This document shows positions 8,191 to 26,141 of a stretch of DNA of 64,000 bases, piece after piece. Location: positions 62,001 to 126,000 of the forward strand of contig JAIQFZ010000004.1 in the NCBI GenBank assembly GCA_020073015.1, read 5' to 3'. A model generated the notes under the pieces. That model made no database searches, had not been told where the DNA came from, and saw nothing but the letters and a program-made list of their open reading frames with translations. Both the position numbers and the translations under genes were made by a program. Origin of the DNA: Terriglobia bacterium. GTDB taxonomy: Bacteria; Acidobacteriota; Terriglobia; Terriglobales; Acidobacteriaceae. Every line of letters begins with the position of its first letter. The first letter of the stretch is position 1.

Positions 8191-8889
8191 TTACACATAC
8201 TCGCTGAAAACCGCGTTATAAACAACTCCCGCCGCCGCGGCTCCAACGATCGGAGCGACCCAGAACAACCACAGCTGACCGATGGCCCACCCGCCCACAA
8301 AGATCGCGGGGCCCGTGCTGCGCGCTGGATTCACTGATAGGTTGGTCACCGGAATGCCGATGAGATGAATCAACGTGAGTCCGAGGCCGATCGCGATTGG
8401 CGCGAAGCCCTGGGGCGCGCGCTTGTCAGTCGAGCCCAGAATGATCATCAGGAAGAAGAACGTCAGAACAATCTCGGCCACCAGGCAGGCGCCCAGCGAG
8501 TATCCGCCGGGCGAATGTGCGGCGTAGCCGTTGGAGGCAAAACCCGCGGTCACGTCGAATCCATCGCGGCCGCTGGCGATCACGTACAACACTCCGGCGC
8601 CCGCGAGACCGCCCAGCACCTGCGCAATAACGTAGGGCAGAAGTTCGGAGGCCGGAAAACGCCTTCCCACAACCAGCCCAACCGACACGGCGGGATTGAG
8701 ATGGCACCCCGAAATGTGTCCAATGGCGTAGGCCATGGTGAGCACCGTGAGGCCAAAGGCGAGCGCCACGCCCGCGAAGCCAATGCCAAGCCCCGGAAAG
8801 GCCGCTGCCAGCACGGCAGCGCCGCAGCCTCCGAAAACCAGCCAGAACGTTCCAAAGAATTCCGCCACTGATCTTTTTCGTATGGACAT
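8191..8889 (-). CDS. aqpZ: Aquaporin Z-type water channel
   Basis: 232-residue inner-membrane channel of the MIP family with six transmembrane helices and two half-helices. The two signature motifs are present: HLNPAVS (NPA at 65-67) and SVNPARS (NPA at 187-189). Length and the first helix ([20 protein letters not shown]) match AqpZ rather than the longer glyceroporin GlpF, so water is the likely substrate. It stands alone, convergent with the inositol-phosphate synthase gene; both could relate to osmotic balance, which is inference. Confidence 0.93.
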
Positions 8890-8925
8890 CGTGGTTTCCT
8901 CTCTGAGTTATGAAATTGTGCATCT

Positions 8926-9555
8926 TTACTTCGCATCCATCTCATACGCCATCTTCAGCCAGCGTTTCAACTCGTCATCAATGTCAGCCTTCGATTTGAC
9001 TTCGATCCGGCGTGTAATCCGGTCTTTCTTCTCATATCCGCCGGTATCGATCAGCCGTTTCGGCGTCTTCATGTTGCCGAACGCAAAACCAAAGTCAATC
9101 CGGGTATTCGTCGAAGCCTTGATCTGGGCAAACACATGGTTCCGATACAGCGCCACAATCGTTTTCCCCGGACACGCCTTCACATCTTTGCCCAGCGCGA
9201 GCGCCAATTTGAGTAGTTGGTCGTACAACGGACGTAGAGCCGCCCGCGACCCGGAGAACATGGCGTCCACCCACTGCTCGGCCGCCTCAAGATACGCTTC
9301 GGGCGAGTCCTCCTCGGTGCCCTTGCCGTCGGCTCGCTCGGCAATCCACCACGCCGTGTTGGTCCCGAGCTTGTACTCTTTCTTCAGCCACTCGCGTCGC
9401 TCTTTCTCGGTGGGCGGTCCGGACTTCCTCACAAGCGCAATCCAGTCGTCGAGCGACCGCCCGGTCTTGGCCGGCAACTCGTTCTTCCACTTCTCGACCA
9501 TGCCGAGACCCGGGTGAGCGCTATAGAGACCAGAGGGTGATTTTGCAGCAGGCAT
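8926..9555 (-). CDS. DUF4287/DUF5655-type protein
   Basis: 209-residue soluble protein. The first 70 residues (SLDDWIALVRKSGPPTEKER, LKKEYKLGTNTAWWIAER) look like DUF4287, and residues about 95-205 (FSGSRAALRPLYDQLLKL, CPGKTIVALYRNHVFAQIK, KDRITRRIEV) look like DUF5655, a combination I recall in uncharacterised bacterial proteins sometimes placed near DNA-glycosylase-like sequences. No catalytic residue can be named. It is 37 bp upstream of the aquaporin gene on the same strand. Confidence 0.72.
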   Translation of the reverse strand: MPAAKSPSGLYSAHPGLGMVEKWKNELPAKTGRSLDDWIALVRKSGPPTEKERREWLKKEYKLGTNTAWWIAERADGKGTEEDSPEAYLEAAEQWVDAMFSGSRAALRPLYDQLLKLALALGKDVKACPGKTIVALYRNHVFAQIKASTNTRIDFGFAFGNMKTPKRLIDTGGYEKKDRITRRIEVKSKADIDDELKRWLKMAYEMDAK

Positions 9556-9618
9556 GGGTACCTCCTGAGCCCGCCATCATATCCAATCTGAGCAGAGACT
9601 CACGATAGAATCATCCCA

Positions 9619-10089
9619 ATGGCCCGCAAAAGAATAACTGGCGCTCACAACACCCGTTTCGTCCAACTCCAGAAAAATTACTGCTTCGCCTGCGGCAAGA
9701 ACAATCCCGAGGGCATGCGCCTGCGCTTCACCTACGACGAAGAGCGTGACTGCTTCATCAGCCGCTTTCGGTTAGGCAAGCGCTACACCGGGCCACCTGG
9801 ACACTGCCATGGGGGCATCATTGCGACCATCCTCGACGAAGCCATGGGTAAGGTAAACAAGCTGCGCCACGTCATTGCGTTAACCTCAGAAATCACCGTT
9901 CACTACCTGAAACCCGTTCCGCTGAACAAGCCGCTGCGGGTCGAATCGCGCGAAGTGAAAGTGACGGGCAGGCAGCACGTCAACATGGCCGAGATTCTGA
10001 ACCGGAAAGGCGAAGTCCTGGCGCGCGGTCGCGGCGTGTTCATCGCCATCGATCCACAAAAGATGTTTGCCAAGTTCGTAGACCGCTAA
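9619..10089 (+). CDS. PaaI-family hotdog thioesterase
   Basis: 156-residue cytoplasmic acyl-CoA thioesterase-like protein. The region FACGKNNPEGMRLRF followed by GPPGHCHGGIIATILDEAMG (about residues 57-76) is the hotdog-fold catalytic segment, where an Asp or Glu and the HGG turn act in thioester hydrolysis. The later part (ITVHYLKPVPLNKPLRVE, VLARGRGVFIAI) completes the fold. The substrate is unknown. It stands alone, convergent with pdxR. Confidence 0.87.
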   Translation: MARKRITGAHNTRFVQLQKNYCFACGKNNPEGMRLRFTYDEERDCFISRFRLGKRYTGPPGHCHGGIIATILDEAMGKVNKLRHVIALTSEITVHYLKPVPLNKPLRVESREVKVTGRQHVNMAEILNRKGEVLARGRGVFIAIDPQKMFAKFVDR

Positions 10090-10099
10090 GTTCGTGTAG

Positions 10100-10188
10100 G
10101 GCGGACACTCTTGTCCGCCGAACGTTGTGCGCTGGTAATCCTGCCGGCAGTCTTGCCGCATTCGGCAGGCGGACAGGAATGTCCGTCC
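10100..10188. repeat. Inverted pair of GGCGGACA palindromes
   Basis: Two copies of the short palindrome: 10100-10119 (8-bp stem, CTCT loop) and 10168-10188 (8-bp stem with one G-T pair, GGAA loop). The loops show that the two copies are in opposite orientation, giving a paired arrangement like REP/BIME elements of enterobacteria. They fill the space between the convergent thioesterase and pdxR genes and may end transcription from both. Confidence 0.7.
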
Positions 10189-10198
10189 GACACTCACA

Positions 10199-11689
10199 TC
10201 AGGCCCGCAGCACAGACGCCAACTCCTCCACGCCCCGGCGTAACTCCCTCGGTTCCACCGCCGCGAATCCCAGCACGATCCCATTGCCTCGCGCTCGGCC
10301 AAAAGCGTACCGGCTGAGGGGCACGACCTCGACATTCCTTTCTGCCGCGGCTCGGGCCAATTCCTCTGCGCTGATCTTTCGTCGCAACCAGCCAATCGTC
10401 TGCAGTCCCGCTTCCACGTTCGAGATCTCAACCGCTCCTTCCAGTTGTTCCCGCGCCGCCTTGAGTAGAACATTCAGCCGTTCCGCGTAGACCTCGCGCA
10501 TCCGCCGGATATGCCGCGCGAAATGCCCTTCGCTGATGAAATCGCAGAGCACGGCCTGTCCCAGCAGCGGCGGATGATGCGTGCTGACCGACTGGGCGGC
10601 CGCGAAGACATCCACCATCTCCGGTGGCACGACCAGGTATCCCAGGCGCATGGCAGGAAACATCACCGCGCTGAAGCTGCCGCCAAAGATTACGACCCCT
10701 GCGCGATCCAATCCCTGCAAAGCGGGCACTGGGCGCCCTGAATAGCGGTATTCGCTGTCGTAGTCGTCTTCGAAGATCATCACCCCCGCCTTGCGCGCCC
10801 ATTCGAGTAGCGTGAGCCGCCGCCGTAAGCTCATCGTGACACCCAATGGGAACTGGTGTGCGGGGGTCACATACATCAGTTTAGGAGCAGGCCATCGGTG
10901 AACTCCACGCTGCGAATCCAATCCTTCGGCGTCGACTGGGACTCCACAGATCTTTGCCCCCACTGCCCGCAGAACTGCCGCCGCCCCCGGATATCCCGGT
11001 TCTTCCATCCACGCCGGTTCGCCGGGATTCAAAAGCAGCCGCGCCGTGCGATCGAGTCCTTCCTGCGCGCCGGAAACAATCAGCACCTGTTCTGGCGTGC
11101 ATCTCACGCCACGCGATGTGTTCAGGTATTCCGCGACCGCTTCGCGCAGCGGACGGTATCCCAGCGTTTCTCCTCCCGCAAGAAGTTTCGTGGAGGCGCG
11201 CCGCAACCGGCGGGCCGCGACCTGCGCCCATAGCGCGGTCGGAAAGAGGTCAAGCGCCGGCTGGTTCGCGCGGAACGCCCGCACGGGCTGCGCCGGACGC
11301 GACCGAAACGGCTGCAGGCGTTTCGCATACGCCGAGAGCGAAATGCGCCGGTGCGGCAATCGGCCTTCCGCGCGCAATCCACCCGCGTGCAGCAACTGCT
11401 CCGGCAGAACCTTGCTGACGTACGTGCCAGAACCAGTCCGACCCTCAACATAGCCCTCGGATTTCAACTGCTCAAAAGCCGTAACGACGGTGGCTCGCGA
11501 TAGCCGGTACATCTCTCCCACATCGCGGGTCGCGGGAAGACGCGCTCCCGGGTACAAGCGCCCTTCCAGAATCGCGACCCGCAACTGCTCATAGAGCCAC
11601 CGATAGAGGGGAACCCCCTCGGCCGGACCAGGCAGATTCAGGGGCAGGGAAGTAGTTTCGCGGGCCACGGGAAAGTGGTATGCCTCCAT
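10199..11689 (-). CDS. pdxR: MocR/GntR-type regulator of vitamin B6 synthesis (PdxR-like)
   Basis: 496 residues. Residues about 27-95 are a GntR winged helix (LYRWLYEQLRVAILEGRLYPG, ATVVTAFEQLKSEGYV); residues about 130-490 are a fold-type-I aminotransferase domain (VLIVSGAQEGLDRTARLLL, FEDDYDSEYRY). It is divergent from pdxS-pdxT, the classic PdxR arrangement, so it probably senses PLP and controls that operon. Two oddities: the segment normally SFSK, which carries the PLP-binding Lys, reads GSFSAVMFPAMRLGY, with Ala at residue 341 (codon 10667-10669); and the predicted operator overlaps the first codons. The GTG at codon 8 is an alternative start that would free the operator. Confidence 0.87.
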   Translation of the reverse strand: MEAYHFPVARETTSLPLNLPGPAEGVPLYRWLYEQLRVAILEGRLYPGARLPATRDVGEMYRLSRATVVTAFEQLKSEGYVEGRTGSGTYVSKVLPEQLLHAGGLRAEGRLPHRRISLSAYAKRLQPFRSRPAQPVRAFRANQPALDLFPTALWAQVAARRLRRASTKLLAGGETLGYRPLREAVAEYLNTSRGVRCTPEQVLIVSGAQEGLDRTARLLLNPGEPAWMEEPGYPGAAAVLRAVGAKICGVPVDAEGLDSQRGVHRWPAPKLMYVTPAHQFPLGVTMSLRRRLTLLEWARKAGVMIFEDDYDSEYRYSGRPVPALQGLDRAGVVIFGGSFSAVMFPAMRLGYLVVPPEMVDVFAAAQSVSTHHPPLLGQAVLCDFISEGHFARHIRRMREVYAERLNVLLKAAREQLEGAVEISNVEAGLQTIGWLRRKISAEELARAAAERNVEVVPLSRYAFGRARGNGIVLGFAAVEPRELRRGVEELASVLRA

Positions 11690-22382: not shown

Positions 22383-23075
22383 ATGATTCCTCTGCGCGAC
22401 GACCAGCCCAGCTTCTCCGTGCCCTTCATCAATTATTTTCTGATCGTCACAAACGTGCTGGTCTACCTGTGGGAATTCTCTGTCGGCATACAGAACCCCC
22501 GCGCACTCAGCGCCTTTGTGGGTCAATTCGCGCTCGTGCCCCAGCACACGGTCGCGGTTCTCACCGGACACTCCTATGGCAGCCCGGCCTCCGGCATTCT
22601 CCCCTTGTTCACTTCGATGTTTCTGCACGCGGGATTCTTGCATGTGGCTGGAAACATGCTTTTTCTTTGGATCTTCGGCGACAATATCGAGGACTACCTC
22701 GGGCACTTCCGATACCTGGTGTTCTATTTGGGCAGTGGCATCGCAGCCGGCCTGACCCACCTTGTGCTCAACATCAATTCCCGTGCGCCCACGGTGGGGG
22801 CGAGCGGAGCCATCGCAGGCGTCATGGGCGCGTACTTCATCCTCTATCCAAGCGCTCGAGTTCTAACCTGGTTTCCACCCATCTTCCTGTTCCATGTTCC
22901 GGCCTGGCTGATACTGGGCTACTGGTTTCTCATGCAGTTTTTCATCGGCACTGCGACCGCGGCGGCTCAAAGCGGGATCGCGGTCTGGGCACATATCGGA
23001 GGCTTTGTGACGGGCGTTCTGATCATCAAACTGTTTTCCGAGCGCCCACACCGGTATCGCTACGGAACCTGGTAG
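22383..23075 (+). CDS. Rhomboid-family intramembrane serine protease
   Basis: 230-residue inner-membrane protease with six or seven helices. The N-terminal MIPLRDDQPS is common in bacterial rhomboids. Family motifs: HAGFLHVAGNMLFLWIFG (His-Asn near residue 82-90), the catalytic Ser in VGASGAIAGVMGAYF (about residue 142) and the catalytic His in WAHIGGFVTGVL (about residue 206). It would cut transmembrane segments of other proteins. Substrates unknown. Single gene, convergent with the receiver/PEP-binding gene. Confidence 0.93.
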   Translation: MIPLRDDQPSFSVPFINYFLIVTNVLVYLWEFSVGIQNPRALSAFVGQFALVPQHTVAVLTGHSYGSPASGILPLFTSMFLHAGFLHVAGNMLFLWIFGDNIEDYLGHFRYLVFYLGSGIAAGLTHLVLNINSRAPTVGASGAIAGVMGAYFILYPSARVLTWFPPIFLFHVPAWLILGYWFLMQFFIGTATAAAQSGIAVWAHIGGFVTGVLIIKLFSERPHRYRYGTW

Positions 23076-23102: not shown

Positions 23103-26100
23103 TCACTTCGCGTTCTTCCCCGGTCCGAACCCGGGTTTGAAGATCATGCCTTCGCGCGCCTTCCCATTCATGATCACCAGCAGTGGGTCTTCAAAACGAA
23201 GGTGGCGCACGCACGCCTGCTCTTCAATCGCTGGTTGCTCACCCAGCCAGGGCCAGTCAACCGATCCTTCTCCCGCATCCGGGTTCACTGTAAAGTAGCC
23301 GACCTGAAACGCCATCAAATTTTGAAAGAAGTGGCTACCCTGCGAGGGGATCACTCGAAAATCGCGGAACCCAGCTTCCACAATCACGCGCGCCCCTGAG
23401 ATCTCATCCCATTCCACAGGGATCCCAAGCCATGGGTCGTTCGAGCCCAACCGGCCCACTCCGATCAGCAAATAGGGACGGTTCTCCAATCCCAGCTGCG
23501 CGTTGAAATGAGCCACAGCCTCGGCCACTTCCTGGCTGCGGCCGCGTTCGAAGCGATGAAAATCGACGACCACGACATCCTGCAGATTCTGGATTCGCCC
23601 ATTGCCCAGCACCATCGAGCTCCGGCAGACCAAGCCTGCGGGATCCACATCCCCCATGCGCAACTCGTCGCCTTCGCGGGACATCACCAGCGGCCGAATC
23701 TGCAGGAAGCCGAATTCAGCAGCTTCGTCCGAGCGCCGCGCCAGACGCACCGCGAACTCGATCTCCACCGGCTGCCCGAGCGCATCCTCGCCGACCCGGG
23801 ACAGTTGGTCCAGGACCGAAGCCAGCGGGAAAACCCCGTGTTTCAGAACCGGCGCAAAGCTCACAATGCGAGCTCCGGGCCGGCTCAGTCCGTCATACAC
23901 CGCGTCGTTATCGCGGCTGTAGGTGGAACCGACGGCCTGCAGCGTGCCGTCCTCCTCTGCCGTCCTCAGGGTAAAGCGGGCCTCGCGCAATCCCTCCAGC
24001 GGGTCTTCGTGTTGGAAATGATTCATTTCCAGCGCCCAGAATTCCGATTGCGAGTTCGTGAGGATGTCTTTCACCGACGAAAACTGCACCAGGTTCCGCG
24101 GATAGCGCGGGCAAAAAGTCAGGCATTTTCCCCCCTCGACCACTTCCCTGCCCATGCCCAGCGCAACCGCCGCCACCCCATCCTCCGATGCCATCGGCGG
24201 CACCGGATAGAAATTGCGCGAGCGGACCACGCCCGAAAAGTCTGGATAAAAGCGTTCGCCGTGAACCGTCCCCACCACCTGCTGGAGGATGACCGCCATC
24301 TTCTCTTCTTCGGTCCGGTACGGGGTGGCGCGCACGTAGGCCTTGGCATGCTGGCTGAAGGTCGAAGCATAGATACGCTTGATCGCCTCGGTCAGTCGTT
24401 CCACCCGCTCCTGCAGGTCCGGTTGATGATTACTCAACATGAAGGTCTCATATACGCCGGTGAAGGGTTGATACTGGGAGTCCTCCAGCAAGCTCGAGGA
24501 GCGCACCGCCAGTGGGTATTTCACTTCGCGGAGAAACGCCGTGAGATCTTCCAGCAGATGCGCGGGCAGCGAAGCGGCCAGAAACCTGTGCTCGATTTCG
24601 GCGTCGTCGTTGCAGTGAATTGCGAACTCCTGCAGGTTGTTCTCGGTCAGGAAGCGGTCAAACACGTCTGTGCTGATCACGACGGCTGGGGGAACGGTGA
24701 CCTTGACGCCGGGAAAACGGCGAGAAAAACGCCGCTTGTACAAGAGATGACGCACAAAGGCCAGGCCCCGCGCCTTGCCCCCGAGCGACCCCGCCCCAAT
24801 CCGGAGGAAAAAGGCATCGCCCGGCTTGAACGTGCCAGCATCGAAGTCCCCGATCAGGAATTCGCTCTGTTCCCGGCGATAGTCGTTGATCGAGTCGATC
24901 AGGTCGTTCCGCAGCACTTCCAGCGTCGCAAAATCGGAAACTTTGCGAGGCCGAAGCTTCTGCGCGACGGCAAACTCGGTTCTGGCCGTCAGCCAGCGCG
25001 AAAAATGGTTCCGCTGGCTGTGGTAGGCAATACTCTCCGCCGGCACCGTGTGCAGTTGCGCCTCGAGCGCTTGCATGTCGCTGGCGCGGGCGACTTCCGT
25101 TCCATCCGGCATGCGGAATACGAAATCGCCGAAAGAGCACTGCTGGGTCAGCAGCTTGCGAAAATCGCGCAGGAAGGTGGGCGAGCGTTTCTGCAGGAAT
25201 GCGAATCCCTCGGCATAGGCGCGCGACCGGTATTCTGTGTGGCTGGAATGCAAAACAATGGGAACGTCCGGGACCGAGTCCCGGATCACCCGGGCCAGTT
25301 CGAATCCAGCATCCGCATCGGGCGCGCCACCGCGCGGAAATTGCACATCGGAGACCACTGCCAGCAGGTTCTCGCGATACTCCATCGCCTGTTTCGCAGC
25401 ATCCTCGTAATCGGAGCACAGCAGGATCTTCGGCCGCGCCCGCTGCCGCACCAGCTTGTGCGCGACGTTGATTCCTTCTCGAATCACGCGCCGCGACTGG
25501 CTGATGAGTTCGGTATAGATCACCGGGAGAATCGAAGAGTAGTAGCGGATGTTATCTTCCACGACCAGCAAGACCGGGACACCAACGGCCTGGGTGTCGT
25601 GGCGGACGTTGCGCTTGTCCTCGATGTATTTCACGATTGCGATCAGGATGCGCGCGTTCCCCTGCCACATGAAGATGCGATCGATCTCGGTCACCGGGTT
25701 CCGGGCAATGAAATTCTTGACCTCCCGGTAGTCATACGCCAGCACCACTACCGGCACGTCCCGGCCGGACTTGCGAATCTCCCGCGCCAACTGGGCCGCA
25801 TTCATCTCGCCCACCGCAAGGTTGGTCACGATCAGGTTGAAGCGGGTCTGGGAGCGAGCTAAGTCGAGTGCCTGGGTACAATTGGAAACGTGGGTGATCC
25901 CCGGAATCTGCTGCAAGTTCAGTTCGCGCGACTCGCCGATGAGCAGTTCGTTGAGCCGTCCATCTTCCCGCAGAATGAAGGAATCATACAGGTTGGAGAC
26001 GAGCAGAATATCGTGCACGCGGAACGGCATCAGCCGGTCGAAGCCTTCAAACGCTTCTTCCGCATCGAGGAACGGATCGATTTCGCCGAGACCGGTCATA

Positions 26101-26141
26101 GCGTTGCCGTCGATTCCATGGGAAAGATCAGAGGTGTGCAA
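23103..26141 (-). CDS. Receiver-domain / PEP-pyruvate-binding ATP-grasp fusion protein
   Basis: 1012 residues with unusual architecture. Residues about 43-165 resemble a receiver domain lacking the phospho-acceptor Asp (the expected strand reads LIVTNLAVGE, Asn107). Residues about 188-330 form a second receiver with VEDN (194-197) and Asp265 in VVSDVQFPRGG. Residues about 440-810 match the PPDK/PEP synthase N-terminal ATP-grasp domain (GSLGGKARGLAF, LAVRSSSLLEDSQ, QQVVGTVHGERFYPDFSGV). There is no phosphohistidine swivelling domain (no TSHAAI-like motif) and no PEP-binding barrel, so a full PEP synthase reaction is unlikely. An alternative ATG is at codon 15. Role unknown; maybe phosphotransfer signalling tied to PEP or pyruvate level. 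Confidence 0.8.
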   Translation of the reverse strand: MHTSDLSHGIDGNAMTGLGEIDPFLDAEEAFEGFDRLMPFRVHDILLVSNLYDSFILREDGRLNELLIGESRELNLQQIPGITHVSNCTQALDLARSQTRFNLIVTNLAVGEMNAAQLAREIRKSGRDVPVVVLAYDYREVKNFIARNPVTEIDRIFMWQGNARILIAIVKYIEDKRNVRHDTQAVGVPVLLVVEDNIRYYSSILPVIYTELISQSRRVIREGINVAHKLVRQRARPKILLCSDYEDAAKQAMEYRENLLAVVSDVQFPRGGAPDADAGFELARVIRDSVPDVPIVLHSSHTEYRSRAYAEGFAFLQKRSPTFLRDFRKLLTQQCSFGDFVFRMPDGTEVARASDMQALEAQLHTVPAESIAYHSQRNHFSRWLTARTEFAVAQKLRPRKVSDFATLEVLRNDLIDSINDYRREQSEFLIGDFDAGTFKPGDAFFLRIGAGSLGGKARGLAFVRHLLYKRRFSRRFPGVKVTVPPAVVISTDVFDRFLTENNLQEFAIHCNDDAEIEHRFLAASLPAHLLEDLTAFLREVKYPLAVRSSSLLEDSQYQPFTGVYETFMLSNHQPDLQERVERLTEAIKRIYASTFSQHAKAYVRATPYRTEEEKMAVILQQVVGTVHGERFYPDFSGVVRSRNFYPVPPMASEDGVAAVALGMGREVVEGGKCLTFCPRYPRNLVQFSSVKDILTNSQSEFWALEMNHFQHEDPLEGLREARFTLRTAEEDGTLQAVGSTYSRDNDAVYDGLSRPGARIVSFAPVLKHGVFPLASVLDQLSRVGEDALGQPVEIEFAVRLARRSDEAAEFGFLQIRPLVMSREGDELRMGDVDPAGLVCRSSMVLGNGRIQNLQDVVVVDFHRFERGRSQEVAEAVAHFNAQLGLENRPYLLIGVGRLGSNDPWLGIPVEWDEISGARVIVEAGFRDFRVIPSQGSHFFQNLMAFQVGYFTVNPDAGEGSVDWPWLGEQPAIEEQACVRHLRFEDPLLVIMNGKAREGMIFKPGFGPGKNAK

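Follow-up and report, generated by a model that had tools for sequence, protein, structure and literature searches.

A minus-strand gene in a 64,000-nucleotide stretch of a Terriglobia bacterium genome (contig JAIQFZ010000004.1, positions 62,001 to 126,000; hereafter the window) encodes a protein in which two receiver domains (REC) and a DUF5752-like helical domain precede a PPDK_N-type ATP-grasp domain and a conserved C-terminal domain. This REC-REC-PPDK_N architecture is real and widespread, and the link of its gene to glutamate dehydrogenase (GDH) genes is strong, so that the functional partner of the protein is very probably GDH or the reaction that GDH catalyses. The phosphorylation mechanism is inferred. 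We favour, with about even confidence, a receiver-controlled ATP-dependent phosphotransferase that regulates its cognate GDH and most likely does so by modifying it covalently and reversibly.

A scan of genome contigs returned 193 stretches with relatives of the protein, whose best segments are 40-95 % identical and mostly near full length; 80 loci kept from these (numbered L below) were used for the locus analysis. The titles of their source records include Acidobacteria, Gemmatimonadetes, Ignavibacteriae, Planctomycetota, Bacteroidetes, Desulfobacterales and Myxococcota, among others. Except where a contig end truncates a copy, the relatives align nearly end to end, and the gene and its architecture are therefore not a product of chance. 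Two records titled Euryarchaeota archaeon (L088 and L091) also hold a full-length gene, with GDH ~2.3 kb away on the opposite strand.

The loci were searched with three GDH proteins and contain 81 gene copies, 77 of them distinct; they were not selected for GDH, because the query of the relative search held none. GDH lies within 300 bp of 39 of the 77 distinct copies, within 2.5 kb of 49 and anywhere in the flanks of 50, and of the 34 copies flanked by 2.9 kb or more on both sides, 21 have it within 2.5 kb. It is by far the commonest non-self neighbour and forms the largest shared neighbour group (39 loci), as delimited by a second neighbour clustering, the initial single-linkage clustering having merged all groups. 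The 49 neighbours divide into 27 upstream and 16 downstream genes of the same strand and 6 on the other strand, and in several loci the two genes overlap or almost touch. Since these arrangements differ, the pair has probably been re-linked more than once. In Parabacteroides distasonis the gene sits between two annotated NADP-specific GDH genes, and tblastn finds the same GDH-flanked arrangement in Phocaeicola massiliensis. Within the Parabacteroides locus (L107, 10988-14199), nuclease-family, nucleotidyltransferase-family and RapZ-like genes separate the REC-PPDK_N gene from the second GDH; the RapZ-like protein has no tblastn match in the Phocaeicola locus L161. Locus L064 presents the order GDH, REC-REC-PPDK_N, GDH, REC-REC-PPDK_N, GDH, with three different GDH genes.

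Other genes of glutamate metabolism recur in these neighbourhoods. An NADPH-dependent glutamate synthase (gltA-type) group is found in 8 loci (L033, L037, L039, L040, L041, L043, L044 and L084), its L044 member scoring 555.7 bits against the TIGR01316 cut-off of 471.75; L037, L041 and L044 carry this neighbour but no GDH. A Glu_synthase-domain gene (PF01645) is common to 10 loci from Desulfobacterales or Deltaproteobacteria, with 56.8 bits against a cut-off of 20.4 for the L093 member. As a side observation, this gene lies upstream and GDH downstream of the REC-PPDK_N gene in L089, L090, L093, L094, L096-L098, L100, L103 and L105, which makes a three-gene glutamate cluster.

The association extends to whole genomes. 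In an independent sample of 149 evenly drawn Acidobacteriota genomes (numbered G), 64 match a profile of the C-terminal domain, and 46 carry the two-receiver type in 49 copies, a figure to which G071 and G072 contribute two copies each and G122, a genome outside the 46, a short frame. Hit classes were set by E-value and frame length, with a tblastn check confined to 20 fetched regions. NADP-type GDH was defined as an E-value of at most 1e-80 to P0002, the enzyme of the window's own genome, which exceeds the NCBIfam cut-off for NADP-specific GDH. It is present in 42 of the 46 genomes with the two-receiver type versus 17 of the 103 without it (Fisher one-sided 1e-18, uncorrected for phylogeny), and in 35 of the 49 copies no more than 5.5 kb separates it from the C-terminal domain.

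The ATP-grasp and C-terminal domains form a constant core, whereas front ends vary and the type of GDH varies with them. Hits of a second, paralogous type occur in 21 of the first 80 genomes, with one of the two hits in G075 used and the weak G122 fragments excluded from the class. GDH resembling P0003, another enzyme of the window's genome (E at most 1e-180), is found in 18 of these 21 versus none of the 59 genomes without the second type, and is adjacent to it in 15 of the 21. In the window's genome itself, the P0003 GDH is followed by a ~600-residue PPDK_N protein and then by a longer one with a PF01909 nucleotidyltransferase domain (24.9 bits against a cut-off of 21). GDH is contained in 12 of the 20 fetched regions around paralogues and family members: the P0003-like form (68-77 %) beside the second type in L119, L120, L121, L126, L127, L134, L135 and L136, a more distant form (about 50 %) 2 to 6 kb off in L122 and L128, and the NADP type beside the two-receiver type in L125, L131 and L135. 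The two modules adjoin in L135, where each of two GDH types has its own type of PPDK_N protein. The paralogues beside P0003-like GDH are located as follows:

L113, 7520-11176, minus strand; also L119, L120, L121, L126, L127, L134, L135 and L136: paralogue type beside P0003-like GDH

These paralogues combine a GAF-like region, PPDK_N and the same C-terminal domain, with PF01909 in some copies. The name GAF itself is not fully borne out for the front end: in L134 the Pfam score of 18.1 falls short of the 22.4 cut-off, and the L113 paralogue has no match. Nor is the name 'NAD-type' GDH fully borne out for P0003, which reaches no NCBIfam cut-off (best model GdhA_Arch). In L121, the second-type PPDK_N gene is followed at 8820-11298 by two additional GDH-like genes of greater distance (about 33 % to the P0003 type).

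The open frame at 23103-26141 of the window corresponds to 1012 residues from a TTG codon and is a real gene, although translation more probably begins at the ATG at 26099 (Met15), near which most aligned homologues start. Its features are:

23103..26099, minus strand: whole gene from Met15, with the TTG alternative at 26141
25587..26018, minus strand: receiver-like domain 1, a pseudo-receiver, residues ~42-185 (Pfam Response_reg, column counts, AlphaFold2 model)
25821-25823, minus strand: Asn107 of receiver 1, in the phosphorylation-site column
25125..25586, minus strand: receiver domain 2, residues ~186-339, with Glu195, Asp265 and Lys318 (column counts, VIA-align)
25347-25349, minus strand: Asp265 of receiver 2
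24858..25088, minus strand: DUF5752-like helical domain, residues 352-428 (Pfam PF19027)
23673..24854, minus strand: PPDK_N-type ATP-grasp domain, residues ~430-823 (Pfam PF01326, invariant residues, VIA-align)
24774-24776, minus strand: Lys456 of the ATP-grasp domain
23130..23669, minus strand: C-terminal domain, residues ~825-1004, a probable divergent swivelling phospho-His domain (conserved blocks)
23331-23333, minus strand: His937 of the C-terminal domain

Pfam matches PPDK_N (PF01326) at residues 452-824 with 136.5 bits against a cut-off of 27 (1.7e-39) and Response_reg in two stretches of the whole protein. NCBIfam models of phosphoenolpyruvate (PEP) synthase, PigC, RedH, rifampin phosphotransferase and some response regulators match fragments only, far below their cut-offs. 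The AlphaFold2 model of the whole chain has a predicted local distance difference test score (pLDDT) of 86 and a predicted template modelling score (pTM) of 0.78.

Residue counts from 56 aligned sequences separate the two receivers. In receiver 1, the phosphorylation-site column (Asn107 here) holds T in 23, M in 18, N in 8, S in 4, A in 2 and L in 1 sequence and Asp in none of the 56, the acidic pair is absent, and Trp159 occupies the usual Lys position in all 56, which together identify a pseudo-receiver. Receiver 2 has the acidic pair, Asp, Ser/Thr and Lys of a response regulator (Glu195 56/56, Asp196 54/56, Asp265 56/56, Ser/Thr299 56/56 and Lys318 55/56, with one gap), and its model (172-326) aligns to receiver structures with VIA-align Z about 13-15. 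For the ATP-grasp domain, residue mapping was guided by Lys22 and His825 of rifampin phosphotransferase (Rph), as given in the available excerpts of PMC4844700. VIA-align places this domain closest to Rph (Z 25.1) and PEP synthase (Z 24.8), and Lys456, Arg547, Glu553, Asp554, Glu613, Glu793, Glu795, Gln814 and Arg816 are invariant (56/56). These residues we take to be equivalent to the catalytic residues of pyruvate phosphate dikinase (PPDK) and Rph.

An earlier note, made from the letters of this DNA, had described a degenerate receiver with Asn at its phosphorylation site, a second receiver with a conserved Asp and a PEP-synthase-type ATP-grasp domain, a description that these counts bear out across the family. 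The loss of ATP-binding residues that it named as the sign of a pseudo-enzyme is seen in none of the 56 sequences, and the signalling enzyme it envisaged, moving phosphate from ATP under receiver control, is supported as the likely role.

Between the receivers and the ATP-grasp domain, the DUF5752 family (PF19027) scores 20.4 bits in the whole protein, below the cut-off of 23, and 28.1 when the piece is scanned alone; the conserved sequence FGDFVFR directly precedes it. The gene for the host genome's full-length DUF5752 protein (L111, 1274-2059, minus strand) immediately follows trehalose-phosphatase and glycosyltransferase family 20 genes, a position from which the DUF5752-like domain may be a shared sensory module. 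The term DUF5752 was not found in the open-licence full-text literature. A rhomboid gene (PF01694) at 22383-23075 of the window converges on the REC-REC-PPDK_N gene, with 27 bp between the stops.

The C-terminal domain contains the strongly conserved blocks GRWGS (GRLGS in the window copy), LGIPV and S-x-G-[ST]-His937-F-F. His937 is found in 56 of 56 sequences, and in 60 of 60 once the four paralogues of alignment A2 are included. A pattern scan of 24 further loci (L118-L137, L107, L108, L161 and L113) matched all but L130; it also missed the two-receiver copy of L131, and L132 reads SRGNHFF. Modelled alone, the domain reaches pLDDT 89 and pTM 0.88 (AlphaFold2), and its first nine VIA-align matches, from ~5 proteins, are all of the swivelling phospho-His or PEP-utilizer type (Z 5.9-7.2). 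They comprise pyruvate kinase C-terminal domains (Z 7.2 and 7.1), which we take to be akin to PEP-utilizers, the phosphoryl-carrier domain of PPDK (2fm4, residues 384-511, Z 6.9), Rph (residues 755-867, Z 6.8, 6.8, 6.5 and 5.9) and C4-type PPDK (Z 6.4 and 6.3); the tenth match, at Z 5.5, is to aconitase X, in a chain of 131 residues. When the whole chain is compared, PPDK matches extend from the ATP-grasp domain to model residue 988, which corresponds to PPDK residue 505. His937 lies in the domain model at the start of the helix that follows the central strand, presumably the placement of the catalytic His in PPDK and Rph. On the strength of these models, the domain is probably a swivelling phospho-His domain. 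The earlier note had described the protein as lacking one; this agrees with the sequence tests, which find none, and is made doubtful by the invariant His937 and the swivel-like model.

Taken together, these features suggest how the proposed regulator of GDH might operate. A kinase would phosphorylate Asp265, altering how receiver 1 and the DUF5752-like and ATP-grasp domains pack together. The ATP-grasp domain would then use ATP to phosphorylate His937, in the manner of PPDK, PEP synthase and Rph, a transfer to which the conserved residues and the predicted fold point. The phospho-His would finally be delivered to the cognate GDH, or alternatively to a GDH-bound acceptor, switching GDH activity, so that GDH would stand in for the missing third (substrate) domain. 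Judged from residues and models, catalysis by phosphoryl transfer has about an even chance of being correct. A 1996 title on B. thetaiotaomicron reportedly describes GDH activity altered by genes near gdhA, which fits a GDH regulator; the fit is qualified by Parabacteroides, where the second GDH is separated from the REC-PPDK_N gene by other genes. For B. fragilis, Yamamoto is reported to have described in 1987 that GDH is reversibly inactivated. We more tentatively propose, at somewhat below even confidence, a phylum-spanning and previously unrecognised class of switch enzymes that phosphorylate GDH or modify it covalently in another way, among them a possible trans-acting factor for the altered GDH activity in Bacteroides. 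Members of this putative class would share a PPDK-type ATP-grasp domain and a cryptic swivelling phospho-His domain. Their front ends would be interchangeable (a pair of receivers, a GAF-like region, or nothing), some would carry a nucleotidyltransferase, and each would be matched to a GDH type of its own, an anatomy that we put forward with the same reserve.

Several observations weigh against covalent regulation of GDH by this protein. Many copies stand apart from the enzyme: 27 of the 77 have no GDH, many of them with cut flanks, and none is present despite ~6 kb on both sides in L027, L028, L029, L044, L063, L070, L078, L079, L092 and L102. The Prevotella locus L108 has no GDH within 8 kb, and 8 of the 20 fetched regions lack it (L118, L123, L124, L129, L130, L132, L133 and L137; for L133, at the least, a contig end truncates the region). 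The window holds no GDH either, so that its own copy is not GDH-adjacent; the three GDHs of its genome are all on other contigs. Four genomes of the Acidobacteriota sample have the two-receiver type without NADP-type GDH and 17 show the reverse, in co-occurrence tests that ignore phylogeny and use score-based classes and thresholds. A comparison of 53 coupled with 4 uncoupled GDH sequences gave seven positions (97, 129, 199, 251, 395, 443 and 446 in P0002 numbering), none convincing as an acceptor residue; the comparison excluded a fifth uncoupled sequence, L178, which shares 91 % identity with the genome's own GDH. As for the C-terminal domain, a scan of the piece alone, taken up to E 10, returned no Pfam family. 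An hhalign comparison of its 60 aligned sequences with 23 PPDK His domains gave a probability of 0.2, a weak negative given the narrow target profile (effective number of sequences, Neff, 1.9), which nonetheless counts against homology. Foldseek found nothing below E 0.001 for the domain model, its top matches looking unrelated, and VIA-align Z values of 6-7, below 8, may reflect a mere common arrangement. Because of the Foldseek and hhalign negatives and the Z values below 8, the phospho-His assignment stays short of proven.

Of the other explanations, the one that survives best is a non-covalent regulator, in which the core would sense ATP, AMP or a nitrogen signal together with the receiver state and bind the GDH hexamer with no transfer of phosphate. 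It would explain the identical GDH linkage, and it agrees with the want of a standout acceptor residue in GDH, of a third substrate domain and of a sequence link to phospho-His domains. Binding alone, however, hardly needs Lys456, Arg547, Glu793, Glu795, Gln814, Arg816 and His937 in 56 of 56 sequences, or His937 kept in the four A2 paralogues too, and we regard this explanation as unlikely. A small-molecule phosphotransferase acting on a substrate or product of GDH (2-oxoglutarate, glutamate) or on another 2-oxo acid, much as PEP synthase acts on pyruvate, with GDH as a metabolic neighbour and not a target, is less probable still. PEP synthase, PPDK and rifampin phosphotransferase, which have the same type of ATP-grasp domain, do use small molecules, and L040, L043 and L087 have 2-oxoacid:ferredoxin oxidoreductase-type genes close by, with glutamate-synthase genes near others; yet Pfam finds no substrate-binding domain, the matching of PPDK_N types to distinct GDH types is regulator-like, and a receiver front end suits regulation.

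The invariant candidate phospho-His and the intact Asp receiver within one chain could also be read as a self-contained phosphorelay, that is, an unusual histidine kinase passing phosphate from ATP through His937 to the Asp265 site, either in its own receiver or in a different one, with GDH or its flux as the input. Among the neighbour groups common to at least three loci, read by eye, no histidine kinase was seen, which accords with such a relay; an NtrC-like regulator common to three loci qualifies this lack of two-component neighbours. The ~600-residue paralogue of L113 and L135, in which the core and the GDH link occur with no Pfam receiver match, makes the relay quite improbable. That the vicinity of GDH is incidental, a matter of housekeeping regions around an orphan PEP-synthase-like enzyme of unrelated function, draws on the window copy, which is not near GDH, and the 27 of 77 copies with none in the DNA examined, and is very hard to sustain against varied gene orders across many phyla, 39 of 77 copies within 300 bp and matched paralogue types.

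Regulation of GDH by a dedicated enzyme would matter because GDH joins carbon and nitrogen metabolism. The GDH link hints that this enzyme, central to nitrogen metabolism, is under the control of a switch not recognised before, and the earlier note's statement that the architecture has no assigned function is in our judgement incomplete. If the proposal is true, PEP-synthase machinery has a new use. Relatives span Acidobacteriota, Bacteroidota, Desulfobacterota, Gemmatimonadota, Planctomycetota and others, judged by record titles, and include human gut commensals. The proposal makes the old Bacteroides observation of GDH activity changed by genes near gdhA directly testable.

Proteins of the same architecture class are already in print. 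Excerpts of PMC5847659 report REC-PPDK response regulators of Bacteroides-like bacteria, whose full-length relatives in Parabacteroides, Prevotella and Phocaeicola are 38-40 % identical to the window protein, and excerpts of PMC4395418 describe aspartate-less receivers joined to PPDK; neither set of excerpts gives a function or a GDH link for REC-PPDK. PMC12632262, on pseudo-receivers, does not mention pyruvate, PPDK or GDH. A REC-PPDK-GDH link was not found in the portions of the open-licence literature covered, a body from which most subscription papers fall outside, so this is no proof of novelty. In the Desulfovibrio nitrate cluster, as excerpted from PMC4001038, a receiver gene adjoins a PPDK_N gene (DVU0247/DVU0246), and an annotated mobile domain is present; we considered this pair as an analogue by description.

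Among characterized enzymes, Rph of Listeria (PDB 5hv1/5fbs) is the closest in the ATP-grasp domain, and its swivelling phospho-His domain, 767-865 with His825 in excerpts of PMC4844700, matches the C-terminal model over chain residues 755-867 (Z 6.8). The window protein scores 25.1 bits against the NCBIfam RIF_Ptrans_rph cut-off of 999 and differs from Rph in its two added receivers and DUF5752-like domain, in a C-terminal domain unrelated by sequence and in the GDH gene neighbour of its family. PEP synthase and PPDK share the PPDK_N ATP residues, and the C-terminal model superposes on 2fm4 (Z 6.9), but the window protein is without a Pfam-detectable PEP-utilizers domain (PF00391), and no PEP/pyruvate-binding barrel family appears in the whole-protein Pfam scan at E up to 1. 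HpeI of Rhodococcus (9goj, its molecule name in the structure file being 'Phosphoenolpyruvate synthase') is a short protein whose match (Z 18.6) stops with the ATP-grasp domain (model 412-809), the aligned range containing no receivers or C-terminal domain of this kind. The analogy that we propose for the function is the control of glutamine synthetase by GlnE and GlnD, which also relies on dedicated enzymes modifying an enzyme of nitrogen assimilation. One paralogue likewise ends in a nucleotidyltransferase domain, whereas the window protein differs from GlnE and GlnD in catalytic core and target; a dedicated GDH partner, if confirmed, would add to nitrogen control a new branch on a par with that of glutamine synthetase.

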